A stretch of 50,562 nucleotides of DNA from positions 1 through 50,562 of the IMG/VR virus record IMGVR_UViG_3300046804_002449; one strand, 5' to 3'. The notes under the pieces are model-generated. The model made no database searches, was not told where the DNA came from, and saw only the letters and a list, made by a program, of their open reading frames with translations. Shown here one piece after another: positions 1 to 42,447 of this stretch. The stretch's first letter is position 1; every line of letters begins with the position of its first letter. This DNA is from a virus. The position numbers and the translations under genes are program-made.

Positions 1-2828
1 ACATTGACCACGCCCATCTTGTTTGGCCTTGGGTTTGCGGTCACGTTTTTTTCTCCATACCTATCCCTCCATTCGGAGTAAGTAAGAAATGGTCCGGGGG
101 CGGTCGCTTTCACGACCTGTGCAGCAGAAGGTGCTGCCTGAACTGGTTCGCCAGTTGCCCCCGGTTGAAATACATAGAGGTCGCCTTGCTTGACGTAGCC
201 TTCGGGGAGATTGGTGTAGCCGTAAGCGTCAGCAGCAGCGGCATTTACCGGCTTGCGGGCGACAAGGGCATCGTGAACGACACCACGATGGGTTTCATTT
301 TTGTCATACCCGAGTTCCTTTGCGGCTTCATCGAACACCTTCGTCTGGATTGGGGGAATCAACGTGAAGAGTGTCTCGTCGATTTTCTTAATGTCCTTTT
401 GCAGCCCTTCGATAATCCGCTTCGACGCCGAATCCGTGTTTGGGTCAATCTCCTCGGTGCTACCGTTCAGGTTCAACCGGGAAATCCGTTTGAGTGCGGC
501 AGAGCGCTTTTTCTGGAGCTTGGTCCGCTCGGCTTCGTAGTCCTGACGCTGCTTCTTGAACATCTCATCTCGCAAAGCTGCCACCTTGTTGAGCGTGGCC
601 GTATTGCTTGCAGAATACTCCTCACGGGTCATCTGCTCCGGCTTCGTCGAATCCCGCTCGGTGCCCACGTCTCGCGACGTTGGCGTGCCTTCGGTAGCGA
701 GCGTCGGCGTCCCTTTCGGGGTGGTTGGTTTGTTTCCAACATGAGTTGGGGCATCCTCAATTTCACTTGATGGCAAAACTTTAAATCCGCCCTGATTTAG
801 GCGCACCTCAACATTGCCATCTGGCATTATGCGGGTGATTTGACCAACGATTTTATTAGTTTTACCACCAACAACTTCACCATTTTTATAGACAGGAACT
901 CGATACCCAACTTTAACAAATCGACCAACCTGAATAAAAGAGGGCGCTTGCTCTTTGGGCTTAGGCTGCTTTTCAAGCAAGTCTCCTCGACCATAAGATT
1001 GAGCTAAGGTGTTAAAGATGTTTTGAACATCTGATTTTTTAGGCGGATTTGATTCTGCAATCTCAGCCTCAACAATAGACCTTGAGCGTCCTTTGAAATC
1101 AGGATGAATCCAATCTCCAATAGAATTATCCCACTGCATTCCGGCTGCAATGCGCCATGCGCGAGATGCTAGGTTTTGAGGGAAATAATCGTTTTTGGCA
1201 TCAAGCTTGGGAGCACCTGTTTCAAGATTTGAAGCTACTTCTTCTTCGCCTGCCGCTGGACGGAGTAGGCTATCGCCAAGGATTGCTTCTTCGGCTTCCC
1301 GGCTTTCAATTCGGTCTTGAGGTTCTTCATAAACGCTTTCTTCGCTGGGGACTTGAGCAGGGGCATATAGTTCTGGTTCTGGTGTTAGTGTGGGTTCTTC
1401 CACAGCGGGTGCTGCGGCTTGCTCCATTGTTGGAGAAGGTGTTACTTCAGGTTCAGCCTCTTCAGCCGCTTGCTCAGGCTGAATTGTCGGCTCGGTTGGC
1501 GGACCAAGGATTTCTTGAATTGTGTCATTAAACTTTTCTTGTTCTTCGGCTGATTTTCCATCTCCTGCGAGTGCTAGTTTTTCTGCTGATGCCTTACCAA
1601 GATCATCAATCAGCGCCGGATTGAGCATGTATTTTGCTCCTTCAACAGCTTTAGTAGTTGCCGAAATTGGCAACGAGATAGCTGCATCACCCAGCATTTC
1701 CATGAATGCCTCCTTGGTGCTAATATCTTGTCCAGCAGCAGCTTGAGCAGCAAGTTCACCAGCTCCAGCAGCACCAGTTTCAATAGCAGCACCACCAGTC
1801 AAACGAGCAATGTTGCCAGCGGAGGAAAATTGATTCTTGGCTGTTTCAGCCGCAGCTTTTGTCGCAGCTCTCAAAGTTGGATTAAGCAAAGCCTTGTCCA
1901 CAGCTTCCTTTGAAGCGACATCCACACCAGCGGAGATTAGTTCTTTCTGAACAGCACGGGCAGCAGCACGCTCAGGCATGGTGAGCAGACGGCCAGCGCC
2001 TTTGACGCCAAGGGCCTCTACCGCGCCAATGACGGAACCGCGAATGGCGCCGGTCTTCAAACCTTCATCAATAATGTCTGGATTCTCTTGAAGGTAAGCA
2101 GCAATCTCATCCGCCGTCATGTTGGACGCAGCGCCTTGTGTGCGTTCATTCAAAACATCAAAGATAGAAGGGCCAGCCTCCATCAAAGTATTGGACAATG
2201 CGCCACCAGCGGTTGCTCCAGCAAGGCCAGTCAAAATGGCTCCGGGACCAGTTTCGATGCCAGCAGCACCGCCAAGAAGACCACCAAGGCCATAGCCAGC
2301 CAAGGATGTAGCACCACTAATCAAAGCATTTGGAGCAGATTGAATCGCAGTCTTAAATGCGGCTCCCGGCTCGGCAATAACGGCTGCTGGATATTGAGCA
2401 AGAGCACCAATAGTCTCAAGCGGACCCTTTGCTTCTTCATAGCCCTTTTCAGCTTCTTCAAGGCTACGCATAAACTGAATATCTTCAGGAGTTTGCGCTG
2501 CTTGTTGCTCACGTTGCAACTTAGCCATTTCAGCCATTTCAGTTGCCACATCTGCGGTGTCACCAGTCAAAGCGTTGAAAGTCGCTCCAACACCGGATTT
2601 CATCTGGCGGTATCCCAAACCTAAAGCAGAACCAAGCTGAGAAAGATAACCCGGAGTTTCTTTCTCTGGCGTAGCAGTTGGCTCGGTAGGCAATTCAGAA
2701 GTGGTCTGTCGCTGCTGAAGAATTTGCTGAATTGCTTCATCATAATCTTGCTGCGTTGGTTCATTCTCCGTGTTGAAGGTCACGGGGTATTCAAGACCGT
2801 CAACTGTAATGGGAACTTGCCAAGGCAT
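1..2828 (-). CDS. Very large virion protein, C-terminus cut by window edge
   Basis: The frame is open from an ATG at 2828 to the left edge, at least 942 residues; I checked most of it codon by codon for stops. The N-terminal part has the short motif PWQVPITVDG followed by Gln/Glu-rich helices. The middle (roughly residues 150-400) is rich in Ala and Gly, with segments such as YGLGGLLGGAAG. The rest is charged and Pro/Glu-rich. Size, composition and position at the end of the structural operon fit an internal virion or DNA-ejection protein of a podovirus-like phage. That role is inference and no catalytic motif is visible. It follows the gene ending at 2831 by two bases, so the two are co-transcribed and probably translationally coupled. 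Confidence 0.8.
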   Translation of the reverse strand, partial: MPWQVPITVDGLEYPVTFNTENEPTQQDYDEAIQQILQQRQTTSELPTEPTATPEKETPGYLSQLGSALGLGYRQMKSGVGATFNALTGDTADVATEMAEMAKLQREQQAAQTPEDIQFMRSLEEAEKGYEEAKGPLETIGALAQYPAAVIAEPGAAFKTAIQSAPNALISGATSLAGYGLGGLLGGAAGIETGPGAILTGLAGATAGGALSNTLMEAGPSIFDVLNERTQGAASNMTADEIAAYLQENPDIIDEGLKTGAIRGSVIGAVEALGVKGAGRLLTMPERAAARAVQKELISAGVDVASKEAVDKALLNPTLRAATKAAAETAKNQFSSAGNIARLTGGAAIETGAAGAGELAAQAAAGQDISTKEAFMEMLGDAAISLPISATTKAVEGAKYMLNPALIDDLGKASAEKLALAGDGKSAEEQEKFNDTIQEILGPPTEPTIQPEQAAEEAEPEVTPSPTMEQAAAPAVEEPTLTPEPELYAPAQVPSEESVYEEPQDRIESREAEEAILGDSLLRPAAGEEEVASNLETGAPKLDAKNDYFPQNLASRAWRIAAGMQWDNSIGDWIHPDFKGRSRSIVEAEIAESNPPKKSDVQNIFNTLAQSYGRGDLLEKQPKPKEQAPSFIQVGRFVKVGYRVPVYKNGEVVGGKTNKIVGQITRIMPDGNVEVRLNQGGFKVLPSSEIEDAPTHVGNKPTTPKGTPTLATEGTPTSRDVGTERDSTKPEQMTREEYSASNTATLNKVAALRDEMFKKQRQDYEAERTKLQKKRSAALKRISRLNLNGSTEEIDPNTDSASKRIIEGLQKDIKKIDETLFTLIPPIQTKVFDEAAKELGYDKNETHRGVVHDALVARKPVNAAAADAYGYTNLPEGYVKQGDLYVFQPGATGEPVQAAPSAAQVVKATAPGPFLTYSEWRDRYGEKNVTANPRPNKMGVVN

Positions 2829-2830
2829 GA

Positions 2831-3865
2831 CTAGCGTGGTGTTTGAATTGGTGTGCCAATTTGGATTTTTGGCATTCTCGCAATATTAGCATTTGCCGTT
2901 GGTGGAGCAACTTGCTTTTGAGGTTTCCCCATTAAACCACCCATTTCTTGTTGTAGAACAGAACCAAAATCACCTCCCATTGCAGCGGGAGAAGTAACCT
3001 CTTCAGCGGTTGCTGCGGATTTAGGCATAAATTTGCTCAACAATCTTTTATCGTAAAGTTGACTAACTGCATTTTTTCTTCTTTGCAGCTCAACCGCTTC
3101 AGGAGAAGGTATTTCTCTAGGTTGAGAAGGATCATCTTCAGAAAACAATGGATTAGGAACCATATCCCTTGCCGAATCATACAAAGCCTTTTCTTCGCTT
3201 TGAAGATAATTTAGATACTTCTCCATTGCTGCCAACTCAGGATCACTTTTCTTAACCGTGTGCTGGAAGATCAAGCCTTCTTCTTCTTCGGGAGAAAGAA
3301 GTTTGCGCTCACCAGTAAGCGGAATGCCCACTTTAGCCAATCTGCCACGTTGTTCATCAATTCCCATTTCTGTGTCAATAACCGTTTTGGCACCCAATGG
3401 ATCGTTGGCGTATTGCGGCGTATTGAGAAGTTCAAAATACTTATTTCGATATTGTCCGGGCAAATCTTTAGCCAAGCTGGGAGCCAATGTTTTAGAAGCC
3501 CTAGAAGGCTGCATAAACTGTGCGACTTTAGCAAATTGACCAAACTGAGGGCTGAAAGCTATGGCTGGATTTCGACGGAAGATATTTTCGATGTTTTCAC
3601 CTTGTTCAAGTTCCTCAAAAGCACGACCCATTGCTTCTTGGCCTTGAAGCTCCATTTCTTGTTTTCTTTGTTCATTAGCCAAAGCAGATTCTTGAATTGC
3701 CATTTGCTGTTCTTCAGCCATGTCCCTTCTAAGCCTTGGATCAAGGGACCATCTAGGCTCATCAACTTCAATGCCAAAAATAGTTCCGGGATTGGATACT
3801 TTACGACGAGGAAGCCCCATGCCAAAAACGCGGGATGCAGGTGTGGATTTGAAGGGTTCAGCCAT
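2831..3865 (-). CDS. Hypothetical virion-associated protein (344 aa)
   Basis: The ATG at 3865 sits in the context GATATG. The protein is Gln/Glu-rich with a predicted helical N-terminal half (EEQQMAIQES, ELEQGENIEN) and a Pro/Ala-rich tail ending IQIGTPIQTPR. No domain is recognised. It lies between a putative connector-like protein (3867-4823) and the giant virion protein with almost no spacing, so a structural or assembly role is likely by context only. Confidence 0.75.
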   Translation of the reverse strand: MAEPFKSTPASRVFGMGLPRRKVSNPGTIFGIEVDEPRWSLDPRLRRDMAEEQQMAIQESALANEQRKQEMELQGQEAMGRAFEELEQGENIENIFRRNPAIAFSPQFGQFAKVAQFMQPSRASKTLAPSLAKDLPGQYRNKYFELLNTPQYANDPLGAKTVIDTEMGIDEQRGRLAKVGIPLTGERKLLSPEEEEGLIFQHTVKKSDPELAAMEKYLNYLQSEEKALYDSARDMVPNPLFSEDDPSQPREIPSPEAVELQRRKNAVSQLYDKRLLSKFMPKSAATAEEVTSPAAMGGDFGSVLQQEMGGLMGKPQKQVAPPTANANIARMPKIQIGTPIQTPR

Positions 3866-3866
3866 A

Positions 3867-4823
3867 TCAAAGAGTTACGAGTCCGGGTTGATTCCAGCCA
3901 GTTCCAAAGCATCCACCCATGATGCCCCAATTGATGAATGAGGTGCTAGGGATGCCGCCACCACGGGCATATTTGGCTTCTTGATTCAAAAGATTGATAC
4001 AACGCGCCCAATTTTCCTCGGCCTTTTGGCTGTCAGAACCATCCTCAAACTTCCAAGCCCAGAAACCAGCACGAAGGGCAGGAATGTTGCCGGGGATCAC
4101 CCAATCGCTTTCATTCCGCATACGGATGAACCTGCGCTGGCAAATCAAACGAATAGCGTTCTCAGCCTGTCCAGTTTGATAACGGCGGTAAGAAGGACGG
4201 GATTCACCGGGATAATAGGAACCAATGAGGTTGTTTCCTGCGTCATACAAAGCCCATGCTTTTTGCATAACCGTGGAAGGATCAGGGGTAGCCTGAATGC
4301 CAGTCACAACAGAGAATTGATTCGTCGTGTTCACGAAGGGAGCAGCACAAGTAACCGACTCACCGAGTAGGCCATCAGCATCAAAAATGTCAGCGCCGTT
4401 TTGATCTTTGCCGAACAAACGGATTTGCTTGCCGTCATCAGCAACATTAGTCGCCACTTTCAAAACACCCACAGTCTGAATGTTGGCTTGAGTGGCAAAT
4501 CCATCCCCCATGTCAATCAGGACACCAGCCCAATTCAACGAGTCCAGAACTTCTCCGGGGCCGTTAATCATGTAGGTATGGAACTGCGTATAGGTCAACG
4601 CAGGAACACGGTTGTAAGTCATTGCCAGAACCGCCTCAAACTCGTATGGCAACGTGATAAACCCATCCGAACTAGGGAAGTCCACTTCAAGAATTGACCC
4701 TTTCCACTTGCCTGACTTCGTAACACGCTCGCAAACCTCATTGAGAATCTGGAGAAAACTCTGTTCTCCAAACTGAGGTTCAAGTTGCTGCCGAACATCG
4801 GCTACTGTGAGTTGGGTGTTCAT
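3867..4823 (-). CDS. Putative tail or head-tail connector protein (318 aa)
   Basis: The protein opens with a helical segment (MNTQLTVADVRQQL) and continues as a mostly beta-rich domain. It ends in an aromatic and Gly-rich tail (NWGIMGGCFGTGWNQPG). The layout of an N-terminal helix followed by many short strands (ILEVDFPSSDGFITLP, VLKVATNVADDGKQIRL) resembles tail-tube or adaptor proteins of short-tailed phages. I infer the function from order and composition and found no diagnostic motif. It stops one base before the next downstream gene. Confidence 0.65.
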   Translation of the reverse strand: MNTQLTVADVRQQLEPQFGEQSFLQILNEVCERVTKSGKWKGSILEVDFPSSDGFITLPYEFEAVLAMTYNRVPALTYTQFHTYMINGPGEVLDSLNWAGVLIDMGDGFATQANIQTVGVLKVATNVADDGKQIRLFGKDQNGADIFDADGLLGESVTCAAPFVNTTNQFSVVTGIQATPDPSTVMQKAWALYDAGNNLIGSYYPGESRPSYRRYQTGQAENAIRLICQRRFIRMRNESDWVIPGNIPALRAGFWAWKFEDGSDSQKAEENWARCINLLNQEAKYARGGGIPSTSFINWGIMGGCFGTGWNQPGLVTL

Positions 4824-4838
4824 TGCAAGTTTGATGAA

Positions 4839-6338
4839 TTAACGTGCATTTGCTCTGCTACTAAGCTCAAGCCATTCTTTTATTACGTCTTCTGGAATCT
4901 TCCGCTTGTTGCCAAGTTCTTGCGATTTTTTGTAGTTTTCTTTGATAGCTTCTTCCAGCTTTTCAAGCTGGCTGACTTTCTCAGCAATTTCCTGTGGGGA
5001 CAAAGTTTTTTGGTATTCGATTGGATTAACAGTTCCAGATGTGATTGTTGCTGTTTTCTTCTCAATCTCTTGAAGAAGTTTATTTCTTCCCACCATCATT
5101 GCTGACCGATCAGCATCGAGAGCTTTCATCTCATCGGAAGCAATTCCTTGTGCTCCATACTTTGCCTCTAGCATGGTTAGTTTGCGTTGCTCACTAGGAG
5201 TCAGTGGCTTTTGCGTAGAGGCAACTTGTTTGGCCACGCTTTTTGCAATAGGGGCTTCGGCGGCCTTGGCAGCGGGTGGTTTAGGCTGTTCTTTTGTGGG
5301 AGCTGCAATCGGAGTTGCTGCTTTGGGTTGCGCCGGTCTTGGCGGAATAACATTTGCTGCTGGAAGATTACCACCCAAAACAGATGAACCACCTGTCATG
5401 CCTTGTGACCGCTGAGTAACATCTTTTTCTTTAAGATAAGGTGACATTGGAACCATGCGGCCCAATTCATCTTGAACCATAGATTGCGGACGCCCCGGTG
5501 CCATGCTAGTAGTAATGCTTCCACGACCATAAGGAGAAGTGAAAGAAGTGGTTCTGCCACTGGTGGTATAGTCAACGCCACGCTTGAGATTGCTCATCAT
5601 TGTTTTTTCCGCAGCACGGTTTTTAGCTGCGATTTCTGGACTGCGTGTGATATTACCTTCCTCATCCATTACCATGCCAGTTGCTTCATTCTTCTTGTTG
5701 TAATTGGCACGCACTTTGTCGAATTGACCAGCAGCCTTGGCGTTAGCAATGTTTTGCTCACGGGTGCTAAGATAAGGATTGGGTGTAGTTGGTGATCTAC
5801 CAGATGAAGCAGCATTCAAAGCGGCTCCAGCAGCTTGCATTCCAGCACCAAACATAGGGTTAAAACCCGTCATAGACTTACCAAGTCCTTGCATTGCACC
5901 ACCAGTGGCTCCAACATTAGCACTAGCACCTTGCTTTTCAGCCGCCATACGCGCCCATTCTTGCTGCTGAGAACTCATAGAAGGCTGTTGGGGCTGCTGC
6001 GTTTGTGCTTGAGCTTGAGGCATTTCACCACGCCCATAACCCAAACCAGAACGATTATACATTGAGTCACGCTGATAGGTGCCACTGTAAGGATTATACA
6101 TCATCCCTTGACCACGGCGGATGTTAGCCTCGCGGTTAATCATAGACATCGGAAGGTCTTTGTAGCGTTGGGACATGTAGAACGCATCAAGTCCCCCACC
6201 CATTCCGGGATCAACTCGACGGGCCGTTCTGCCTGTTTCGGGTCCAGTGCCTTCTTCGTATTCAACATTACGAGGGCGTGCATCAATGCGACGACCTTGA
6301 TTTGGTCTAACAAATTGGGGGAAAGTTGACTCTGCCAT
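4839..6338 (-). CDS. Low-complexity virion protein (499 aa)
   Basis: The N-terminal third is rich in Gly, Arg, Met and Gln (QAQAQTQQPQQPSMSSQQQ). The middle is Ala/Pro-rich, and the C-terminal 130 residues are a charged likely coiled coil (QLEKLEEAIKENYKKSQELG). No enzymatic motif is visible. Low complexity and position inside the late minus-strand operon suggest an internal or tail-associated structural protein. The start at 6338 (context TATTATG) follows a small hairpin at 6343-6365. Confidence 0.75.
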   Translation of the reverse strand: MAESTFPQFVRPNQGRRIDARPRNVEYEEGTGPETGRTARRVDPGMGGGLDAFYMSQRYKDLPMSMINREANIRRGQGMMYNPYSGTYQRDSMYNRSGLGYGRGEMPQAQAQTQQPQQPSMSSQQQEWARMAAEKQGASANVGATGGAMQGLGKSMTGFNPMFGAGMQAAGAALNAASSGRSPTTPNPYLSTREQNIANAKAAGQFDKVRANYNKKNEATGMVMDEEGNITRSPEIAAKNRAAEKTMMSNLKRGVDYTTSGRTTSFTSPYGRGSITTSMAPGRPQSMVQDELGRMVPMSPYLKEKDVTQRSQGMTGGSSVLGGNLPAANVIPPRPAQPKAATPIAAPTKEQPKPPAAKAAEAPIAKSVAKQVASTQKPLTPSEQRKLTMLEAKYGAQGIASDEMKALDADRSAMMVGRNKLLQEIEKKTATITSGTVNPIEYQKTLSPQEIAEKVSQLEKLEEAIKENYKKSQELGNKRKIPEDVIKEWLELSSRANAR

Positions 6339-6342
6339 AATA

Positions 6343-6365
6343 CCTTTAGATTATTCCCCTAAAGG
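6343..6365 (-). promoter_or_regulatory. Hairpin just upstream of a start codon
   Basis: CCTTTAG (6343-6349) and CTAAAGG (6359-6365) form a 7-bp inverted repeat with a 9-nt loop. It ends five bases before the ATG at 6338. It could modulate initiation of the 499-aa gene, or be a weak processing or termination element; there is no T-run. Confidence 0.35.
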
Positions 6366-6385
6366 ACGGATTGGCAACGAGGATT

Positions 6386-6952
6386 TTAGCGGAACTTGGG
6401 ACCTATAAACCAAGTAACCAGAGAATACCGAACCCCTAGTTTTACGGGCGTTACCCGATGCCGATTAAACGAAGGAAAGAATATAACATCTCCTTGTTGA
6501 GAAAACTGACCATCTTTAAGTGGATCATTGGCAAACTCTAGCTTGCCACCCGTGTATTCGTCAGGTTTTGACAACTGGATGACCATGCTCATTTTACGAT
6601 CAAACGGGGTGGCCTTGAGCCAGTTCAAATCTTCGTGCCAGCCGTAACCACCTGAGTTATCAGCATTGTATTCCGTGAATTGAACTTCGTGGAATCCTGC
6701 TAGGTCAAATCCAAATGCGTTGGCGTTTGCTTGTAGGGCCATTTTTTCCACCCTAGCAAAAAAAGGTGCCAAAGCAGTATCGTAACGACTCAACCAACGA
6801 ACGGTTGATCGCCGTATATGGTCGTCAACAACGGATTTCCCGCCGTGTCCAACCGTGGCTTGAACGGCTTTGTGCTTTAAACCATGCTCAATGAGCCATT
6901 TGCATTCTTCTTCAGTAAAGGCTTTTGAGAAAAGTTGCCACCATGCGGTCAT
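6386..6952 (-). CDS. PKHD/prolyl-4-hydroxylase-type 2OG-Fe(II) dioxygenase
   Basis: This 188-residue single-domain oxygenase would hydroxylate a peptidyl residue, most likely proline, using Fe(II), 2-oxoglutarate and O2. The iron ligands are visible as H106 and D108 (GWHEDLNW) and H165, with 2-oxoglutarate-binding R175 in [11 protein letters not shown]. The C-terminal TWFIGP is also typical of the PKHD group. I chose the ATG at 6952 because it overlaps the stop of the collagen-like gene as ATGA; an upstream in-frame ATG at 7021 would need a 73-nt overlap. Tight coupling to a Gly-X-Pro repeat protein suggests that protein is the substrate. The fold is near certain, the substrate inferred. Confidence 0.9.
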
Positions 6953-7692
6953 ATAAAGGCTTGATTCCAGAATTGTTTTGCTGCGTTCATCTGTTCTTCC
7001 GTTTTGGAAGGCAGGTGCCAATCTGGATAATCTGCTTGAATGCCAAACACAAGATCAAATTTGCCGCATTTACTTTGAAACCGTGCGGTTTCTTCGCAAA
7101 TAGCTGCGGAGAATCGTTTTTCTAAACTTTGTCCAGCAGGAACAATGTCAATGAACCAAGGTCGAGTTCCTTCGGTTACAGCAAAAGCATAGATACCTTC
7201 TGAGGTCGAAACCACAGAATCTTTGGGTCCGGGAGGACCATCTGGTCCGATTGGACCCGGAGGGCCATCTGGTCCGATTGGTCCATTTGGACCCGTTGGA
7301 CCGATTGGCCCCGGAGGGCCGGGAGGTCCGGGAGGGCCATCAGGACCGATTGGCCCCGGAGGTCCGGGAGGCCCACCGCTGGGACCGGGAGGACCGTCTG
7401 GTCCCGGAGGTCCGGTTGGTCCAGTTGGCCCATCTGGACCAGTTGGCCCATCAGGGCCAGTTGGCCCCGTTGGTCCCGGTCCGCCGGGAATACCGGGATC
7501 ACCCGGATTTCCGGGATTTCCGGGAGAGCCATTAACACCCGGAGAACCCATAGCATCACTGGTGGATGCCACCTTGGGTGAATCTAGTTGTGAAATTGTT
7601 ACTCCGCTGGAGGTTGGAAACGTGGTAATAGAATCATTTCCCCACACCCAAGGGCGGTTTGCGATCTGAGAATTGCCTGTGTATTCGCTCAT
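6949..7692 (-). CDS. Collagen-like fibre protein (247 aa)
   Basis: An N-terminal globular segment of about 48 residues is followed by Gly-X-Y triplets from residue 49 to 157. There are 19 triplets, one extra Gly at residue 106 that breaks register, then 17 more. The C-terminal domain of about 90 residues has two cysteines and several tryptophans. Pro is frequent in both X and Y positions, so a triple helix is plausible. Such proteins form trimeric phage tail fibres or capsid fibres. The gene begins within the stop of the preceding gene (ATGA at 7689-7692) and ends in ATGA overlap with the hydroxylase, so the three are one translational unit. Confidence 0.9.
7222..7548 (-). repeat. Collagen Gly-X-Y coding repeat
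   Basis: This 9-bp-based tract encodes 36 Gly-X-Y triplets with the unit GGN-CCN-NNN. Codons vary from unit to unit (GGT, GGC, GGA), which lowers perfect DNA repetition. One single-Gly insertion shifts the triplet phase at residue 106, a typical flexible kink. Confidence 0.9.
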
Positions 7693-8483
7693 TGAATGAC
7701 GCGCTTTGGTGAAACTGGCGGGAATATCATAGTCTTACGCCGATAATACTGACCATTTACCAAGTTCACATCGTCTTCAATGACAAACGGCGCCCAATCA
7801 AGGAAATTGGTAGCAGGGAAGATTTGCTTGTTAGGATTCCACCCACCCGTTTCGTCCACCGTGCCTTGTCCAAACACTTTTTGAGCACCCGGAATGTTGT
7901 TTTCAAAAATCACCTTGGGATGAAGGCATCGAGGAAAGTTAATTTCTTTTCCAAGAAAGTCACCATTGATGTCAGTCGGAATGGGCTGAACATGAGTTAT
8001 CTCATTTTGCGAATAAGGCACATCGCTTAGGTATTCTTCAAGTCTAACCACCGAAGATACGTTTGGCGTTGGTTTATAAACATACTTGGCAAAGTAACGA
8101 GGAGCAGTTTCAGTGGTTGTCCCATTAAAAACAGCCTGCGGAAACACTGTGGTTTGGTAAATGTCTAACGAATAAAGCACTCCCGGCCAAGGATATTGAC
8201 GAGTGGCAAATGACGTGCGGAAAGGTGTTTGACGCTGCTTAGGAGTCTTTGGCTTGGCGTAGTAAAACCAAATGTCATCCCCTTCTTTGGATGAGTCGCA
8301 ATAACGATAGTCAGAAAAATCTTGCCGCCGCGGAAGGGTTGGAATGGCAGATTCTTTGTAAAGCTCACCAAGAGTCGGAGTCGCATCCAACTTCATTTGA
8401 TTCGCGTCTTGCCAGACCCGAACGGAAAACTCGTCAGGATTAGGTGTCGGGATGACTTCTAACTTGATTTCAGGCGAGGCCAT
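7689..8483 (-). CDS. Hypothetical virion protein (264 aa)
   Basis: The composition is soluble, aromatic and Pro-rich ([26 protein letters not shown]), without membrane segments or recognisable catalytic motifs. It overlaps the collagen-like gene by ATGA and follows a beta-rich protein, so it is probably a tail or fibre-attachment component. The assignment rests on context only. Confidence 0.7.
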
Positions 8484-9223
8484 TAGGGGATATTAGGCGG
8501 ACTGGTGGCGATAATATCGCCTTCTTGATATTCAGCAGGAAGGTAACGAGGCGTTGCGCTGGCTCCACGGTCAAATAGCCAAAATGTCTTGTTGAGTAGC
8601 GTTTGGCGCAGGGGAAAATGGTTGATTTCATCGGAAACATTGGCAACAAAAGAATCGGCCATAAGAGTCCATGTATATGCACTAATTGGAGTGCCTCCGG
8701 GAGAATTTACAACAGCTTGATAATTTTTTAATCCATTAGGCAATGCTGCAACTGGAGATGGTATATTTTGAGTTGATGCCCAAATTGATCCCGGACCACT
8801 TGTGGGAACTTCAGAAACGTCAGTTCCAATACCTGTGCTTGCTGTAAAAATGTCTCGATATTCCGCTGACCAAGTTTGCATCTGTTTATTCGACACAATC
8901 ACCGATCCTGCCGTGATATTGGTGGTGAAGTCAATCGCAGACCCGCCCTCGGTCAAAGATAGTTGGCAAGTCGCTCCACTGGCTGCAATGACATAATAAG
9001 CCGTTCCAGTATTAAGGCCAGAACCACCAGTCAAACTGGTAAAAGTAACCTGCATCCCATTCGCTAAGGTTGCGCCCGTAATGGTCACTATTTCTGTCGT
9101 AGCATTCCCCGTTACGGAAGAATAAGCTGTTTGGGAGCCAGAAAGGAAAACGTCAATGACGCCCTCCTGCTTGGCGAAGGTCAAATTGTTGGACCTAATA
9201 AGGTAAAGTGTAGTTCCGGCCAT
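8483..9223 (-). CDS. Beta-rich putative tail or fibre protein (246 aa)
   Basis: Thr/Ser/Gly-rich strands (VTITGATLANGMQVTF, TGTAYYVIAASGATCQLSL) look like the short DUF-type beta repeat common in phage fibre and head-decoration proteins. I prefer the ATG at 9223 (MAGTTLYLIRSN). The longer form from 9259 would begin inside the -10 element of an opposite-strand promoter and adds only 12 basic residues. It is the first gene of the leftward run that ends at the window edge. Confidence 0.7.
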   Translation of the reverse strand: MAGTTLYLIRSNNLTFAKQEGVIDVFLSGSQTAYSSVTGNATTEIVTITGATLANGMQVTFTSLTGGSGLNTGTAYYVIAASGATCQLSLTEGGSAIDFTTNITAGSVIVSNKQMQTWSAEYRDIFTASTGIGTDVSEVPTSGPGSIWASTQNIPSPVAALPNGLKNYQAVVNSPGGTPISAYTWTLMADSFVANVSDEINHFPLRQTLLNKTFWLFDRGASATPRYLPAEYQEGDIIATSPPNIP

Positions 9224-9242
9224 GATTTTGCATTTTAACCGC

Positions 9243-9271
9243 TTGACAGGGGAAGGCAAGCGGGATTAAAT
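9243..9271 (+). promoter_or_regulatory. Sigma70-like promoter, plus strand
   Basis: TTGACA (9243-9248), a 17-nt spacer, then TTAAAT (9266-9271). The -35 is a perfect consensus and the spacing is optimal. Expected transcription start is near 9278. Nothing upstream on this strand would otherwise be transcribed. Confidence 0.65.
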
Positions 9272-9277
9272 GAACCC

Positions 9278-9371
9278 ACAAATAGGTTTTGCTCTGTGCG
9301 AGGAGTGATCCGACCCATAGCAAACCGCTCTGAGGCCGACTTTTCGCACGAAGTCGGCCTCTTTGTTTTTT
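9278..9371 (+). ncRNA. Candidate ~94-nt small RNA or attenuated leader
   Basis: The segment is bounded by the promoter at 9243-9271 and the intrinsic terminator at 9332-9371. Inside, GGTTTTGCT and AGCAAACC can pair (with a bulge) to form a 5' stem, with an AGGAG-containing apical region between them. No ORF of meaningful size fits. It may be a free-standing phage sRNA, or an attenuator controlling read-through into the plus-strand genes at 9797-11020. Confidence 0.5.
9332..9371 (+). terminator. Intrinsic terminator, plus strand
   Basis: A perfect 11-bp stem (9332-9342 with 9351-9361, arm GAGGCCGACTT) and 8-nt loop are followed directly by TTTGTTTTTT. The T-run is on the plus strand only, so it cannot end the minus-strand genes. 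Confidence 0.85.
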
Positions 9372-9796
9372 GCCTATCGAAAAACTTAACATAGACTTGC
9401 CATCTTACATAGGCTTCACAAGAACCTTAACCCAACTTCCTGAACAAGGATTGGCTTGAGCGCCCCGCAGCAGACCTTGGGGGTATCACAACAAAAACGC
9501 GTTGACCTGTCCACCGCAGGTTGACGGGCGAAGCGCAAGACATGGTTTGGACGTAGCTAGTCGGCTACTAGAGTTCCCAGTTGTGAGTCAATAGCGACCA
9601 TCATATCACTATTTGATTGTCTGAAACGCGCATTGAGGCTCCCTGCAAGACTTTTGAAAAGCAAAGCCTACATGACTGGCTCCATATACCTAGGCTCCAT
9701 ACGAAATGATAAAATCATGGCATTCACTTCCTATTGCTAATCCAATAGGACGTGTTTTCCACAACCCACCATGCCCTTCACCACCGAAATGATAAT
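9372..9796. other. Non-coding gap with small hairpin
   Basis: No convincing gene or tRNA is visible here. A 7-bp inverted repeat (CCTATTG at 9730-9736, CAATAGG at 9743-9749) lies about 50 nt before the start of the plus-strand operon. It may be part of its leader or an operator. Confidence 0.4.
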
Positions 9797-10117
9797 ATGA
9801 CTAACGAATTACTAACCCTAAGCGACCACGTTCTTAACTGGATACTGAATGAAGAAGAAGTTACTCAAGGTTTCCGCGAGGCAATCGAAGCTGAATTACT
9901 TCGCCGCACGCTGGAGCGTGATACAGACGAAATGCTGACGCTTACCTCCAAAATGCTACACGATGCTTCCACCAAGGGATACCACGGTTTTAACGCTAAA
10001 CAGTTAAAGGTGATCGGCCTAAAATGGCCTCCGAAAAAAGGATGGCTAAAATCGCTGGTCGGAACTCAAATGTTTGCCTCTCAATACCGCAAATTTGTAG
10101 AAGCAGGAAAGAAATGA
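9797..10117 (+). CDS. Hypothetical early protein (106 aa)
   Basis: I chose the ATG at 9797 because it has the ATATG context shared by most genes here; an alternative ATG lies at 9752. The N-terminus is acidic and helical. The C-terminus (FNAKQLKVIGLKWPPKKGWL) is a recognisable motif of small phage proteins with no assigned function. It is the first gene of a plus-strand island within the minus-strand late region. Confidence 0.65.
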   Translation: MTNELLTLSDHVLNWILNEEEVTQGFREAIEAELLRRTLERDTDEMLTLTSKMLHDASTKGYHGFNAKQLKVIGLKWPPKKGWLKSLVGTQMFASQYRKFVEAGKK

Positions 10118-10157
10118 TTGCTATTTCAACAAACCCTAACGACCTTAGCTAACCGAT

Positions 10158-10328
10158 ATGACCAACGAAATCACCGAACTAAAACGCAAACTAGCCGAGC
10201 AAGACGAGATTATCCGAGAACTCAACGAGCGAGCTTCTAGCCATCTCATCACCATGCTGAACACCGTTCAGAAGTTGAAGCTGGAAAACGATATGATGAA
10301 CGCCAAACTGCGCCAGAAAAACCAATGA
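10158..10328 (+). CDS. Small coiled-coil protein (56 aa)
   Basis: This 56-codon ORF starts at an ATATG and reads MTNEITELKRKLAEQ with regular heptads throughout. Its TGA overlaps the next ATG (ATGA at 10325-10328), which supports coupled translation. Function is unknown; it may be a dimerisation partner of the downstream regulator. Confidence 0.6.
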   Translation: MTNEITELKRKLAEQDEIIRELNERASSHLITMLNTVQKLKLENDMMNAKLRQKNQ

Positions 10329-10585
10329 ATTTATACAGAAGAACCCAACAGCTCCAAGGGGCGGAACGGGCAATGAAAAAGGCTGAGAAGGCCATGCGCG
10401 AAATCTGCAAGGCTATTGGCAAAGAACTGCGTCAAATGCGGGAAGATCGCCACATCAAGCAGGTTACACTGGCAAAGCAGTTGGGCATAAGTCCCTCCCA
10501 TCTGTTTGAGATTGAAGATGGGTCTGTGATGCTGGATGAAAAAAGGTTGAAGCAAATTTATGGGCAGATCAAAGGTGATACATGA
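10325..10585 (+). CDS. XRE-family helix-turn-helix regulator (86 aa)
   Basis: Residues about 32-78 form a Cro/CI-type helix-turn-helix (LRQMREDRHIKQVTLAKQLG, then ISPSHLFEIEDG), preceded by a Lys/Ala-rich helix. There is no oligomerisation or protease domain, so it is a small DNA-binding regulator. It is embedded in an operon with ATGA overlaps on both sides. Confidence 0.8.
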   Translation: MNLYRRTQQLQGAERAMKKAEKAMREICKAIGKELRQMREDRHIKQVTLAKQLGISPSHLFEIEDGSVMLDEKRLKQIYGQIKGDT

Positions 10586-10812
10586 ACCTTTGCCCAAGAT
10601 GCTATGCCAATGGACGATCTTTGTGGCCTACTTCATGTCTGTGCGTAGATGGCGGTGCTCTCAAGCCTTCCGAGTTTCACGCATGGAACGCCACCCGTAG
10701 AATACCCTATAACTTCCCAAAGCAGGAAATCACCTTGATAAAGCCAGTTGCAAAACGAACCAAGTTGGTGTTCGGTCAAAGAACCAAAAATGACAGAAGA
10801 AACCGATATTGA
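10582..10812 (+). CDS. Hypothetical protein with CxxC motif (76 aa)
   Basis: It starts by ATGA overlap with the HTH gene. The N-terminus carries CPRC and a second close cysteine pair (CLC), a possible small zinc site. The C-terminus is strongly basic. It overlaps the following gene by 23 nt. No family is recognised. Confidence 0.55.
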   Translation: MNLCPRCYANGRSLWPTSCLCVDGGALKPSEFHAWNATRRIPYNFPKQEITLIKPVAKRTKLVFGQRTKNDRRNRY

Positions 10813-11020
10813 GTCTATTGAGGATGCCATCATCAACATCCACGAAACTTGCCTGAATCCAGAAATTGCGGCTCCGCTGATCCGCAAAAATCTGGCGCAA
10901 AACCTTGTCAACGAATACAGATTTCGGTTCTTCAAGAAAGACGGCAAAGCAGTTTGCGAATGCCAAGTCAATACCTCACCAAGGCCCAAGTATCTTGGCA
11001 GGTTTAAAGGACTGAATTAG
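10790..11020 (+). CDS. Hypothetical acidic-to-basic small protein (76 aa)
   Basis: I chose the ATG at 10790 (context AAAAATG) over the longer form from 10748. The N-terminal half is acidic (MTEETDIESIEDAIINI) and the C-terminal half basic with two cysteines. It ends in a 17-nt tail-to-tail overlap with the minus-strand gene at 11004. Function is unknown. Confidence 0.55.
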   Translation: MTEETDIESIEDAIINIHETCLNPEIAAPLIRKNLAQNLVNEYRFRFFKKDGKAVCECQVNTSPRPKYLGRFKGLN

Positions 11021-11219
11021 TGGTAAATAATTGGCTCCAATTTGCCAGCATGGGGCTAAGACGCTCGCCTGAGTCTTGATGCAGGCGGCATTTACAGTTG
11101 TTTTCTAGTGAGCACTCAATCCAGACAACTCCCGGTTCACAATGCAGTTTGGGATGCTGCTTGTGGCGGCAAACGGCCTTGGCTTCAAAAGCGTTTTTGA
11201 TTTTCTCGTAATCGGTCAT
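11004..11219 (-). CDS. Hypothetical Cys-rich protein (71 aa)
   Basis: Five cysteines and several histidines (CRHKQHPKLHC, CSLENNCKCRLH) suggest a zinc-binding mini-domain. It begins by ATGA overlap with the endolysin gene, so it is the last gene of the lysis operon. No family is recognised. Confidence 0.6.
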   Translation of the reverse strand: MTDYEKIKNAFEAKAVCRHKQHPKLHCEPGVVWIECSLENNCKCRLHQDSGERLSPMLANWSQLFTTNSVL

Positions 11220-11779
11220 CGTGTGGCTTGGAAGTGCATACTATCCCTTTGCCAGAAAGCACCAGCAGGCATCCAGCCTTCTTTGGCAAACTCTTCCATG
11301 ACTTCAAGGGGCATTGTAGCCCGTGTAGGCCAAGGCGTGTGATTGCCATTGCTTTCAGGGTCAAAATCAACCGCTGCTGCCCTTGCGTGCAAGCTAGGCA
11401 GTGAGCCTCCACGCATAAGGCGATTGTTGTAGCAACCAGCATACCTTTCCAAAACTTTGCGATGCGGTCCCTTGCTAAGAGCTGTCAGAATGCGCTTGAG
11501 GCTTTCAGCTACCTTAGCATGGCAACGGATGATTCGGACAGGTTTGCCCTCATATTGAATGCCAAGAGAAGCCACATTGATTGTGGTCAGCTTGGATTCA
11601 TCGCCAGCAGCCCCATAAAACTTAGTCAACGCAGCTTGATTTGTTTCGGGCCAAGGACTCGGATTAGGCATCAATTTACGCAAGTATTCTTGGCAGGCGG
11701 CAATGCTTTTTGGACCCCAAAACCCATCTGGAGTGGTGCCAATCTTGGCCTGCATATCTTGGATTTCCTTGTGTGTCAT
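11216..11779 (-). CDS. M15 peptidase-type endolysin
   Basis: The 187-aa protein has an N-terminal peptidoglycan-binding-like segment (MQAKIGTTPDGFWGPKS) and a VanY/M15-like metallopeptidase domain. Likely zinc ligands are H131 and D138 in SLHARAAAVDFDP and H182 in DSMHFQ. It would cleave peptide cross-links in murein from inside at the end of infection. There is no signal peptide, so export depends on a holin; several small membrane proteins lie directly upstream in the same operon. It overlaps its neighbours at both ends by ATGA. Confidence 0.88.
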   Translation of the reverse strand: MTHKEIQDMQAKIGTTPDGFWGPKSIAACQEYLRKLMPNPSPWPETNQAALTKFYGAAGDESKLTTINVASLGIQYEGKPVRIIRCHAKVAESLKRILTALSKGPHRKVLERYAGCYNNRLMRGGSLPSLHARAAAVDFDPESNGNHTPWPTRATMPLEVMEEFAKEGWMPAGAFWQRDSMHFQATR

Positions 11780-11877
11780 TTATTAGACGTGTAAATGATG
11801 ATGACGCCCCAAACGAATAGGGCAATCGCGGTAAAGGTTAAGCCGAAAAGCTGGGCGAATGAGAACTCTTGAATCAT
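11776..11877 (-). CDS. 33-aa single-span membrane protein
   Basis: The ORF MIQEFSFAQLFG continues into one hydrophobic helix (LTFTAIALFVWGVIIIY) and a short TSNK tail. ATGA overlaps occur with genes on both sides. Its position directly before the endolysin suggests a holin-like or lysis-accessory role. Confidence 0.7.
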   Translation of the reverse strand: MIQEFSFAQLFGLTFTAIALFVWGVIIIYTSNK

Positions 11878-12131
11878 GGGAGGCTGTCTGGCTCGATCAT
11901 ACGAGTATTGTTTTTGTGAAGGAACTTTGCCAGATCGGTGCTGAGTTTGTCCACAACATCTTCTGGCAAAGCCCATTCCCATTCATGCAGAAACTCATGG
12001 ATGAGGATACGCAGGTGCGGTTGGCCTTTAAGCCTAGCATCAATCTCAATCTCACCGTTGCCGTGGGCTAGGCCAAGGGCGCGGTATCGCCCTAGCTTTC
12101 GCCTAGTTACGGTGATTGAGGTCGCTTTCAC
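11874..12131 (-). CDS. Small HExxH protein, putative metallopeptidase (85 aa)
   Basis: It starts at GTG (12131) overlapping the previous stop. An HEFLH motif (H45, E46, H49) lies in a helix ILIHEFLHEWEWALPED, the hallmark of zincin metallopeptidases, followed by a C-terminal helix. The family is a short, SprT- or ImmA-like phage protein and the third zinc ligand is not obvious. Its place in the lysis cassette might mean an accessory murein or envelope protease, but intracellular roles are equally possible. Confidence 0.65.
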   Translation of the reverse strand: MKATSITVTRRKLGRYRALGLAHGNGEIEIDARLKGQPHLRILIHEFLHEWEWALPEDVVDKLSTDLAKFLHKNNTRMIEPDSLP

Positions 12132-12514
12132 AGCTTGGTTCGGACTTGCTTGACCATCAAAGTATTGGACCCACGCACGTTTTTGGCGATCTGGTAATCT
12201 GTGTAGCGAGGATGACGCTTGATGGCTTTTTTGATCTTGCTTTCAAGATCGTTGGCTTGAGGCTTTGCCAATGGTCCATCGGATTCTTGCCTTTGCCGGT
12301 AGCATTTGACTCGGATCGTCATGCGCCGTTTAGCATCCCAAACAGGAAACTCTTGGGCTTCAAAGACGCCTGATGCAAGTCCGCCACGCAAAAGATCGTG
12401 GACACGCTCTGGAGCGCATTGCAGTTCGATGGCTATTTTCTCTTTGGTGTCCCATCCAGCAGGGACGCGATATTTCTCAATGTTGATCTTATCAATGGCT
12501 TTTTGCCAGTTCAT
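12128..12514 (-). CDS. Winged-helix-like DNA-binding protein (128 aa)
   Basis: The N-terminal half resembles a winged helix (WDTKEKIAIELQCAPERVHD). The C-terminal half has a second possible HTH (KKAIKRHPRYTDYQIAKNVR). This paired arrangement is common in phage regulators and small terminase-like proteins. It may regulate the lysis operon. It is separated from the phosphoesterase gene by 20 nt. Confidence 0.55.
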   Translation of the reverse strand: MNWQKAIDKINIEKYRVPAGWDTKEKIAIELQCAPERVHDLLRGGLASGVFEAQEFPVWDAKRRMTIRVKCYRQRQESDGPLAKPQANDLESKIKKAIKRHPRYTDYQIAKNVRGSNTLMVKQVRTKL

Positions 12515-12534
12515 AGGTTTGTTTTGGCGGGTTA

Positions 12535-14502
12535 TCAGACGAAAATGGGGAACGTGACCGTCCTTCCATATCGTTTGTCAAAGATGAAGCCAGTCTGTGA
12601 AGGTGGCTCGTAGGGTGCTTTGATTGCTACGGAGTAAGCATTGAAACCGATAAGTGAACCATTGCATACCCACTTGGGATTTTGTTGCGACTGATGCCAA
12701 TGCCCAAAGATGTCGAGGTCTGCTGGAACCCCTTTGTTCCACGCAGCGATAGCTTTTTCGACTGGAATGGTCAGACCACCGACACCACCTTGGTATTGCA
12801 AACCGTCTCCGTGGTGGATGCGGAGTGTTTTGCCGTAAAGGTCAAGAAGCAGATGGTAACCGTCAGACACATGCCAAGAGGCTTTGTCCCTCAGATGCTT
12901 CGCCATCGTCTTGTAAAGCATCCATTCGTAGCTGTTTGCTGCACCTGTGGCATGTCGGGGTTTTTTGGTGCTATTACCACTAACAAGTGGTATTCCATTT
13001 CTGCGCGTAATAAGTGTTCCATTCGGAACGGTTCCGCACCAAATGGTTCCTTCATAATCAACCTCAAAAACTTGATTTTTAAAATCGTTAATATGACCCC
13101 TTTTACTTTTGGGAAGCGAAAGAATTGAATCGCCACGATTGTCTTTTCTTACTCTAGCGGCAATGCCATGTATTACAGCCAAAGATTGAAGTTGACTCAA
13201 AAAATGCTCTCTTCCATAAATTACGCACTCTTCGCCTCTGGTGTGCCCATCTCCATCTATTACAGATGAAAGAAAAATACCAAACTGCCTTGTGGACAAG
13301 TCCATAAACCACTCTGGAAATACATACTTATCTGGAAGTAGATCAGTTATCCATTTGGATGACTCAGAAGAAAGAGTAAAGGATCGCTCAGTTAATTTAC
13401 TTAAAAGTGGCCTCCCGCAAACATGTGCCGTATCTCGATCTCTTGCAAAATCGCCATAGCACAATCCTAGCCGGTTAAGAATGTCCTGAATTTTATCAAT
13501 ACCCTCTTGTTTGCTCTGGTGTATTCTTACAGAGATGCGTCCTCGTTGATGGCCATACGATCCATCCGTCATAATCCATCCTAAAAGTCGTAATACATCA
13601 TCGCATATAACCACAGGCTCTTCATCTTGGCCTAATGCACACTTGGGCCAAGTAAGTGATCCAAACGATCCTTTATCAACAATGGTCTGAATATCCTCAA
13701 ATTTATCATTTCCCGTGTGTGTTTTTACGACCATTCGATGATTTGGTGTCACCTTATAATCGGCGGTTGCCGTTTTAACATGAATCATCTTACCTGTATA
13801 AGCAGAAATGAAAATATCTGTTAGTTCTTGCCATTGGTTTTTACCTGTTTCCATGTTGTAGGTAGCAACGACATCGCCAATTTTAATCTCGTTGTATTTC
13901 CTCCATCCATGGCGCGTAAGCAATTCTGTTTCGTCATCATGGCATCTGCCATGATTTCCATACACACAGGGTATTGAAATTTCCCCAAAGTGCTTGGATA
14001 GCAGATCAACTCCGCTGGCAATTTGGTCCTGAAGCCACAGAACCGTTTGCGTTGGCGATAGAGCGTTGTTCTCCATCAATTCCTCATGGATGTAGCCCGT
14101 CATCAAGTCACCCCCTAAAATAAGCACTAAACGCTCAATTTTGGCCCCATGCCGCTGAATCTCAGCCATGCGGACGATAGACTGCCAAAAACGGTTAATG
14201 CGCTGCTCGGCAATGTCGAGGTTGAACTCGTTGAGGCCGTTGATCGTCTTGCCTTCCACCGTTTCCTCCACATGCCAGTCAGAGGCTACGGCAACAAAGG
14301 TGGCCTCGGCATCGGTTTCCTTGGCAACTTTGATCTTAGAAGCCACTGGCTTTTCACCGGAAATACCAAGGGCTACATTGAGTTGCTGATCTTTTTCGGC
14401 AATGACGGCAAAGAGCTTTTTGCGCTCTACTTCATGGTCCGCCACTGTTTTCTTGTGACGAATCTCTTGAGTTTCGTGGAGAGCGGCAGACCAGTTTTTC
14501 AT
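12535..14502 (-). CDS. Calcineurin-like metallophosphoesterase containing an intein
   Basis: The precursor is 655 aa. The extein is a metallophosphoesterase: DWH at residues 75-77, GGD at 130-132, GNHGR at 182-186, and HHGD and GHWHQ (563-566 and 600-604) for the remaining metal ligands. It most resembles phage Mre11/SbcD- or MPP-type phosphatases; the substrate is unknown. An intein (residues 187-510) sits immediately after GNHGR and before STKKPRH, in the catalytic motif itself. Without splicing the enzyme should be inactive. The mature protein would be about 331 aa. Confidence 0.9.
   Translation of the reverse strand: MKNWSAALHETQEIRHKKTVADHEVERKKLFAVIAEKDQQLNVALGISGEKPVASKIKVAKETDAEATFVAVASDWHVEETVEGKTINGLNEFNLDIAEQRINRFWQSIVRMAEIQRHGAKIERLVLILGGDLMTGYIHEELMENNALSPTQTVLWLQDQIASGVDLLSKHFGEISIPCVYGNHGRCHDDETELLTRHGWRKYNEIKIGDVVATYNMETGKNQWQELTDIFISAYTGKMIHVKTATADYKVTPNHRMVVKTHTGNDKFEDIQTIVDKGSFGSLTWPKCALGQDEEPVVICDDVLRLLGWIMTDGSYGHQRGRISVRIHQSKQEGIDKIQDILNRLGLCYGDFARDRDTAHVCGRPLLSKLTERSFTLSSESSKWITDLLPDKYVFPEWFMDLSTRQFGIFLSSVIDGDGHTRGEECVIYGREHFLSQLQSLAVIHGIAARVRKDNRGDSILSLPKSKRGHINDFKNQVFEVDYEGTIWCGTVPNGTLITRRNGIPLVSGNSTKKPRHATGAANSYEWMLYKTMAKHLRDKASWHVSDGYHLLLDLYGKTLRIHHGDGLQYQGGVGGLTIPVEKAIAAWNKGVPADLDIFGHWHQSQQNPKWVCNGSLIGFNAYSVAIKAPYEPPSQTGFIFDKRYGRTVTFPIFV
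12973..13944 (-). mobile_element. Intein with LAGLIDADG homing endonuclease (324 aa)
   Basis: Splicing blocks are visible. Block A starts at C187 (CHDDETELLTRHGW). Block B is TPNHR at 252-256. Block F is near VFEVDYEGTIWC. Block G ends PLVSGN at 510, with S511 as +1 nucleophile. Between them are two LAGLIDADG-type helices, LLGWIMTDGSYG (306-317) and FGIFLSSVIDGDGH (407-420). The penultimate residue is Gly instead of the usual His, a known but uncommon variant that may slow Asn cyclisation. Confidence 0.93.
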
Positions 14503-39308: not shown

Positions 39309-40099
39309 TTATCCACGACGAAGCCACCTACCGAGCGCATCCCGCTCTCAATTATTCTTCAGCTAAATCACTGCTGAAATCGCCCAAGCACTTCCAAGCC
39401 GCTCTCAATCGCAAGTTTGAGCCTTCACGGGAAATGATTATTGGTAGCGCAGTTCACAGCATTGTTTTGGAGGGCAAGCAACCTTCCTACATCGTTCGTC
39501 CTGCTGATCTCGACCTTCGCACCAAAGAAGGTAAGGCGTGGCGCGATAAACACGCTGGCAAAGAAATCGTGACGCAGGAAGATAATGAAATTGTAGTGAG
39601 GGCAGCAACCGCTGTGCAAGCTAGTCTTGACGCGCAATATCTTCTTAAACTTTGTCCGCACCGAGAAGTCGGTATTGTGCAGCACTACGAAAATGTGCCG
39701 TTAAAGGGCAGGTTGGATGCGTATGGGTATGACGAAGCTGGTAAGCCGATCATTCTGGACTTCAAGACAACGGGAGATGCCGACCCTGAAACGTGGGGGA
39801 AGAAAGCCTTTGGCCTTCGTTACCCTATGCAAACAGCATGGTATGAATCTTTGTTGGCTCTTGAGCTTGGCCTTGAAGAACCACCTGCTTATTTTTGGCT
39901 CGTGGTTGAGACGCAAGACCCGTTCGATGTTGTGATCTATCAGCCACCCGAAGAAGCTCTTGAGATTGGTCGTGCTCAAATGAAGCACTGCATTGAAAGC
40001 TACAAAACGTGCGTTGCCACAAATAAATGGCCGGGATACACAAAAGGAATCATCCAGCTTGAAGTTCCTGCATGGGAGAAAAGGAGGTGGATCAAATGA
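39305..40099 (+). CDS. RecE-like PD-(D/E)XK exonuclease
   Basis: The 264-aa protein shows GSAVH (47-51), GRLDAYG (135-141) with D138, and the D152-x-K154 catalytic pair (ILDFKTTGDA), followed by YPMQTAWY. This is the exonuclease VIII or PDDEXK_1-type fold that generates 3' single strands for RecT. It is coupled to recT and to the DpdA-like gene by 4-nt overlaps. Confidence 0.9.
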   Translation: MIIHDEATYRAHPALNYSSAKSLLKSPKHFQAALNRKFEPSREMIIGSAVHSIVLEGKQPSYIVRPADLDLRTKEGKAWRDKHAGKEIVTQEDNEIVVRAATAVQASLDAQYLLKLCPHREVGIVQHYENVPLKGRLDAYGYDEAGKPIILDFKTTGDADPETWGKKAFGLRYPMQTAWYESLLALELGLEEPPAYFWLVVETQDPFDVVIYQPPEEALEIGRAQMKHCIESYKTCVATNKWPGYTKGIIQLEVPAWEKRRWIK

Positions 40100-40719: not shown

Positions 40720-41099
40720 ACAAAGAAAGATTAAATCAAACATTCAAACTTTGGAAAGATTTTTCGTTTGAAGCTGCTCATCAACTTACAAAAGTTCCTG
40801 TTGGTCATCAATGTGGCAGATTACATGGTCATTCATATAAAGTTAGAGTGCATTGCGAAGGAATACTTGATCCAAATAAAGAATGGGTAGTTGATTATGC
40901 TGATATTGCAAAAGCAGTTAGACCTATTACTGAAAGTTTAGATCATTCTTTTTTAAATGATCGTTTTGATTTTGAAACCACGGCAGAGAATATTGCTTGG
41001 TGGATTGGACAACAACTTGTAGATAAACTGCCATCCGCAGTTGCAGTTGAGTTGTTTGAAACACCAACAACATCAGTTCAATGCCACATTATCAAGTAA
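40716..41099 (+). CDS. queD: QueD, 6-carboxytetrahydropterin synthase
   Basis: This 127-aa T-fold enzyme converts dihydroneopterin triphosphate to 6-carboxytetrahydropterin, a step to preQ0. Zinc ligands are H22 (FEAAH) and H37/H39 (LHGHS), catalytic C33 (HQCGRLHGH), LDHSFLND at 75-82 and the substrate-binding E115 (ELFETPTT). It overlaps dpdA by ATGA and shares its A/T-rich codon use. FolE, QueE and QueC are not in this window and must come from elsewhere in the phage or from the host. Confidence 0.93.
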   Translation: MNKERLNQTFKLWKDFSFEAAHQLTKVPVGHQCGRLHGHSYKVRVHCEGILDPNKEWVVDYADIAKAVRPITESLDHSFLNDRFDFETTAENIAWWIGQQLVDKLPSAVAVELFETPTTSVQCHIIK

Positions 41100-42363: not shown

Positions 42364-42447
42364 AATAATTCAAAAAACATTCAGAATCCCGATTTACTCT
42401 CGTTCGCATTTGTGCGAGCAAACCTATGTCGCAAGACAACCCACAAT
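42364..42447 (+). promoter_or_regulatory. Upstream region of the Tas gene
   Basis: It contains AAAATAATTCAAAAAACATT, similar to AAAATAAATTCAAAAACCATT near 35509, and TTCGCATTTGTGC (42403-42415), the inverse of a 13-mer at 34899-34911. The shared boxes before three separate genes suggest a phage promoter or operator class. Confidence 0.45.

Follow-up and report, generated by a model that had tools for sequence, protein, structure and literature searches.

The 50,562-base virus record IMGVR_UViG_3300046804_002449 (the window, analysed here at its full length) encodes on its minus strand a collagen-like fibre protein and, overlapping its end, a 2-oxoglutarate- and Fe(II)-dependent (2OG-Fe(II)) oxygenase. 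This two-gene cassette probably specifies a trimeric collagen-like virion fibre together with an oxygenase of the prolyl 4-hydroxylase (P4H)/PHD type that hydroxylates its own fibre chains, most likely at prolines. Modification of the co-encoded collagen appears well supported by sequence comparison: we assign the enzyme to the collagen because the two genes travel together, the oxygenase clade is linked to collagen genes, and one residue of the collagen varies in step with the companion enzymes. This linkage points to collagen as the substrate, and the modelled fold makes hydroxyproline the likely product.

Close relatives of both genes occur on five viral contigs (L001 to L005). Of these, L001 comes from a related phage; L002 and L003 to L005 have different flanking genes and another fibre N-terminus, yet their repeats, C-terminal fibre domain and oxygenase are retained at 83-86% identity. 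DNA similarity between the window and L002 to L005 is restricted to about positions 7476 to 6385, beginning within the repeats and stopping at the oxygenase stop codon, and that between L002 and L003 covers only about 1.55 kb, the flanks being unrelated. Across three genomic settings that are unrelated to one another, the shared DNA consists of the two genes or barely more. Since the similarity ends at the borders of the pair while the flanks differ, the fibre tip and the enzyme are a mobile unit that moves as one. The ATGA stop/start overlap is retained in all five relatives. The initial annotation, which placed the pair at the correct coordinates, had described the two genes as translationally coupled through ATGA; the overlap is indeed present at 6952-6949, but ATGA-type overlaps also connect the upstream genes in the window (7692-7689; 8483), so that on its own it is weak evidence, and we dismissed it as proof of pairing.

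A Gly-Pro-repeat DNA pattern returned 120 viral loci, 109 of them with real collagens. Of 100 viral records with a collagen, 20 had an oxygenase domain of family PF13640 scoring over the cut-off, versus 4 of 100 random records (Fisher p 0.0004), and two of those four random records also encode collagen. The pairing had been described as uncommon, which does not hold: roughly a fifth of the viral records with a collagen have such an oxygenase, and hundreds of relatives were found. Within-record proximity alone is modest (combined p 5e-5, from hand-entered gene positions, with the genes far apart in several records). A tree of 32 oxygenases contains a supported clade of 17 (95/96), and 16 of its members have a collagen gene on the same strand no more than 2 kb away; this clade includes the window oxygenase and excludes those oxygenases that collagen phages encode far from their collagen gene. 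Only three label changes are needed on the tree, versus a mean of 11 for shuffled labels, and none of 500 shuffles was as low. A search of IMG/VR by oxygenase sequence alone, with three subclades as queries, gave 235 loci, of which 56 had less than 3 kb of upstream sequence, leaving 179 assessable. A same-strand collagen gene ends within 2 kb upstream in 143 of the 179 (143 of 235 overall), compared with 2 of 110 random points; among the remaining loci, collagen is downstream in nine and 2-5 kb away in six. The upstream neighbour is retained in 28 of 44 assessable loci after dereplication at 70%. The oxygenase clade is collagen-linked.

A further line of evidence comes from larger operons. In cyanophages S-8S56 and S-PRM1, relatives of the window genes sit in an overlapping operon that encodes, in order, a collagen-like tail fibre with an S74 chaperone, a 125-aa protein, a 2OG oxygenase (A), the homologue of the window enzyme, and a PLOD-like protein of 615-621 aa with Glyco_transf_25, GT_PLOD and C-terminal 2OG-like domains. 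Animal lysyl hydroxylases prefer Gly-X-Lys, and the phage loci with a PLOD-like gene show that preference too. Among loci with an upstream collagen, lysine fills 15-44% of Y positions where a PLOD-like gene is present, versus 0-5% where it is not (36 vs 84 loci, p 5e-21; 5 vs 19 after dereplication, p 4e-4), while median lysine at X is zero in both groups. The separation is complete inside subclade A2 (29 vs 30 loci) and inside A3 (7 vs 26). Loci selected by their PLOD-like gene have a collagen within 4 kb in 48 of 58 assessable cases, with X lysine zero in all and Y lysine high in nearly all. Roseobacter phage CRP-6, from outside the sample, fits the same pattern (98 triplets, lysine at 27% of Y and none of X, proline at 6% of X); the core oxygenase was not found in the CRP-6 genome. 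High Y lysine is not exclusive to these operons, as 5 of 109 collagens reach at least 10% outside known PLOD loci, one of them (L029) in a record without GT_PLOD. Because the PLOD-like gene covaries with lysine at Y, we infer that the enzymes act on the neighbouring collagen, and the sequences indicate that the enzymes of PLOD operons are matched to their neighbouring fibre.

Several other loci bear on these companions. Proteins with GT25, GT_PLOD and 2OG domains that adjoin collagen-like fibres bearing lysine at Y (L013:2964-4829, L014:5555-7399, L066:3674-5434, L099:4372-6165 and L516:7971-9740) look, from their domains, like phage collagen lysyl hydroxylase/glycosyltransferases. L281 encodes a 923-aa GT_PLOD protein (1339-4110) upstream of two 250-triplet collagen genes (7520-13599), with no adjoining core oxygenase, and L276 a 777-aa protein (4526-6859) with a glycosyltransferase-like start and a weak C-terminal 2OG match, between a collagen (lysine at 12% of Y) and the core oxygenase. 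A group 1 glycosyltransferase lies directly downstream of collagen and oxygenase in L383 (1481-3217, also with a methyltransferase domain) and L432 (5542-6732); these enzymes may possibly decorate the fibre with sugars.

The window collagen itself matches Pfam Collagen (PF01391) at 60.3 bits against a cut-off of 27.2. The 36 Gly-X-Y triplets claimed for it are present, in two runs (19 + 17; residues 49-157) interrupted once by a single extra glycine (GPS-G-GPP). Proline occupies 27 of 36 X positions; at Y there are 16 Pro, 6 Thr, 6 Asp and 4 Ile, and lysine occurs once (a GPK at the repeat end). No PLOD-like gene adjoins the window pair, and no PF25342 (GT_PLOD) domain was found in L001 to L005. 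The N-terminal 48 residues are probably the virion attachment and the C-terminal domain is likely a trimerisation or receptor-facing domain; this 90-aa non-repetitive domain had no match in the phage records searched and gave no confident structure model (predicted local distance difference test, pLDDT, 52). The fibre would form a trimeric triple helix in the virion. We considered whether the Gly-X-Y frame is an artefact of a palindromic GGNCC repeat, as the antisense frame 7223-7669 (+) is also open, and rejected this: the minus-strand frame is taken as real because of its ATG, its conserved C-terminal domain and the purifying selection acting on it.

The oxygenase matches PF13640 (2OG-FeII_Oxy_3) at 54.4 bits (cut-off 27, E 2.5e-14). 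As first proposed, all metal and 2-oxoglutarate residues are in place, and H106, D108, H165 and R175 are invariant in alignments of 12 and of 29 homologues. Both genes of the pair are under purifying selection; for the oxygenase, non-synonymous (dN) and synonymous (dS) divergence from the nearest relative are 0.011 and 0.42 (dN/dS about 0.03), and dN to L002-L004 is 0.11, with dS saturated. The AlphaFold2 model (pLDDT 94.2) has as its best fold match the P4H of Pseudomonas putida (4iw3, Z 20.6), then the algal P4H with (Ser-Pro)5 (3gze, 19.9), both superposing with a root-mean-square deviation of 2.8-3.0 over 172-178 residues; HIF hydroxylases (Z 18-19) and vCPH of PBCV-1 (5c5t, 18.5) follow, and PiuC (16.6) and PKHD (3dkq, 16.2) score lower. 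The nearest solved protein by sequence is PKHD 3dkq, and the enzyme had been called PKHD-type. That label stands only at superfamily level, because the P4H folds score above PiuC and PKHD and the curated NCBIfam equivalog cut-offs for PKHD/YbiX/PiuC are far from reached (26.6-51.2 bits versus 143-399). On the strength of the model, the oxygenase likely hydroxylates peptidyl proline.

The residue and the effect of modification are suggested by fold and composition. Proline is favoured, from the fold and the gene position, and composition does not decide between X and Y; the window fibre supplies both candidate sites (27 X-Pro, 16 Y-Pro). Among PLOD loci, proline at X is higher with the core enzyme than without (0.31 vs 0.16, p 0.01). 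A number of observations weigh against the interpretation of a proline-directed collagen enzyme. This last difference is lost on dereplication (p 0.10), and L543 is a clear counterexample, with the core enzyme present and proline at only 0.02 of X. Proline at X shows no difference between linked and unlinked collagens, and the residue signal of the core enzyme is weak; proline at Y, the animal site, is not raised class-wide (median 4% linked vs 2% unlinked). The covariation seen with PLOD belongs to a companion enzyme, one that the window family lacks. The IMG/VR queries were taken from collagen-linked members, a bias in those counts, and 21 of the 235 loci have no nearby collagen; L006 is an exception within the supported clade, with no collagen nearby. 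Finally, the best-matching bacterial fold, P. putida P4H, is known to target EF-Tu and not collagen. The proposal of a hydroxyproline-stabilised phage collagen therefore stands in part: joint transfer, clade linkage and companion covariation pair the enzyme with collagen, and the fold is that of a prolyl hydroxylase, but the Y-Pro signal is not class-wide.

These compositional results leave some room for a variant in which the oxygenase modifies the co-encoded collagen mainly at X-Pro in Gly-Pro-Thr, or at Thr or Asp in Y, as a stabiliser or for sugar attachment; we regard it as possible, at a clearly lower probability. Linked collagens are rich in GPT triplets (median 0.38 vs 0.10 unlinked, p 0.002) and in Y=Thr (0.52 vs 0.25, p 0.003), while they show no such enrichment for Y=Pro; the unlinked collagens in this comparison were drawn by the Gly-Pro DNA pattern. 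Gly-Hyp-Thr peptides give stable triple helices. In some loci glycosyltransferases or extra 2OG oxygenases adjoin the core enzyme, and the P4H of Bacillus anthracis, as summarised in a review (PMC8968730), hydroxylates X and Y prolines alike. The window collagen itself points the other way, with a Y=Pro content at the 98th percentile among 103 collagens and a lower share of GPT, and a proline-hydroxylase fold argues against Thr or Asp.

It is unlikely that the oxygenase targets a host or other phage protein such as EF-Tu, or is a metabolic accessory gene whose adjacency to collagen reflects an accessory-gene hotspot in tail modules. The top fold match is a P4H-EF-Tu complex, phage 2OG oxygenases are usually classed and handled as auxiliary metabolic genes (PHROG_61; PMC12542629), and some relatives lie far from any collagen; a hotspot would sit poorly with joint transfer at exact borders, clade-wide adjacency and companion-enzyme residue covariation, and the distant oxygenases of collagen phages are those that fall outside the clade. 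Short genes downstream of tail fibres often encode assembly chaperones, and the position of the oxygenase would suit a folding or assembly factor for the fibre with non-essential catalysis, a reading rendered very improbable by the strong purifying selection and by iron and 2-oxoglutarate residues invariant in 29 homologues.

If the enzyme hydroxylates its own fibre, the collagen would be translated first and the enzyme made through ATGA coupling, so that it could meet nascent, unfolded chains. For each hydroxylation the host cytoplasm would supply Fe(II), O2 and 2-oxoglutarate. Modification of the chains, mainly at prolines, would precede trimer formation and might stabilise or tune the triple helix, alter its hydration, or provide a handle for sugars.

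Table 1. Features of the collagen/oxygenase region in the window
Feature	Position	Strand	Description
Collagen-like fibre protein	6949..7692	-	247 aa, ATG start, TGA stop; PF01391 E 1.5e-16; PHROG tail fibre families
Fibre N-terminal 48 aa	7549..7692	-	specific to the window phage lineage; MTFNPFTGTLELGGGG stands instead in L002-L005
Gly-X-Y region	7222..7548	-	19 + 17 triplets, one inserted Gly
Fibre C-terminal 90-aa domain	6952..7221	-	83-99% identical in L001-L004
ATGA stop/start overlap, collagen/oxygenase	6949..6952	-	
2OG-Fe(II) oxygenase	6386..6952	-	188 aa, prolyl-hydroxylase fold; iron ligands H106/D108/H165, 2-oxoglutarate residue R175
Upstream gene	7689..8483	-	264 aa, no assigned function; overlaps collagen start at 7689-7692; outside the mobile pair

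Elsewhere the window carries phage genes including RecT, primase/DnaB, tail-fibre-like proteins and an M15 peptidase. The first 12 kb had no near match among cultured phages, and a genome-contig search gave no close relative. An exonuclease/phosphoesterase gene (PHROG_284) at 12535-14502 (-) is split by an insert that resembles an intein and carries a LAGLIDADG domain (PF14528). At 40072-41099 (+), a QueD-like PTPS gene (PF01242) adjoins a 215-aa protein resembling a TGT/DpdA-type enzyme, and 7-deazaguanine DNA modification is possible. A match to PHROG_4285 (transposase, E 1e-41) lies at 42412-43347 (+).

Collagen and peptide hydroxylases are known outside tailed phages. Mimivirus L230 is a bifunctional collagen lysyl hydroxylase/glucosyltransferase (Luther et al. 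2011, as cited in PMC4691112 and PMC12220804): as here, one virus encodes collagen-like proteins and a hydroxylating and glycosylating enzyme, and the companion gene of the cyanophages combines domains of these kinds (GT + 2OG). Unlike L230, which as described there belongs to a giant virus of amoebae and targets lysine, the window enzyme comes from a tailed phage, consists of one P4H-fold domain of 188 aa and is gene-coupled to a collagen without lysine save the terminal GPK. PBCV-1 vCPH is likewise viral and a single-domain P4H fold, but comes from an algal virus and is 21% identical to the window enzyme. Pro-Pro-Gly peptides are in vitro substrates of the P4H of B. anthracis, a bacterium with BclA-type collagens (Schnicker and Dey 2016, in PMC8968730); this P4H too is a prokaryotic hydroxylase, but a cellular one connected with a spore protein and not part of a phage cassette. 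The P. putida P4H (4iw3) and PKHD (3dkq; PiuC 9ghl) are the closest solved structures and sequences, but have EF-Tu, iron uptake or undefined targets. Collagen-like fibres of Escherichia coli prophages (EPclA; PMC3368898) share the phage Gly-X-Y trimeric fibre segment but have no hydroxylase, and the needed prolyl hydroxylases are said there to be absent from bacteria and viruses. No prior description of a phage collagen/hydroxylase linkage was found in the open-access papers searched.

The window pair is a small member, and the oxygenase/collagen class is more interesting than the window itself. Judging from the sequences, it is probable that phage enzymes hydroxylate the phages' own collagens in much the way known from animals. 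It seems fairly probable that tailed phages possess a collagen-modification system of their own, in mobile cassettes or operons of a Gly-X-Y fibre and a P4H-fold hydroxylase, some with a PLOD/GT25-type lysyl hydroxylase-glycosyltransferase, in which enzymes and fibre residues co-evolve; animal-type collagen processing would then exist among viruses of bacteria, and virion maturation would be the real role of many phage 2OG 'auxiliary metabolic genes'. The question of collagen hydroxylation is directly testable, because named isolates carry the larger operon or a PLOD-like gene (S-PRM1, S-CAM9, S-8S53/55/56 and CRP-6). Were hydroxylation confirmed, the statement in PMC3368898 would be contradicted for phages. 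Compact enzyme-substrate pairs could then be used to produce hydroxylated collagen in bacteria, a clade of phage oxygenases classed as metabolic would need renaming, and hydroxylated and glycosylated collagen would be made inside bacteria by phage enzymes.
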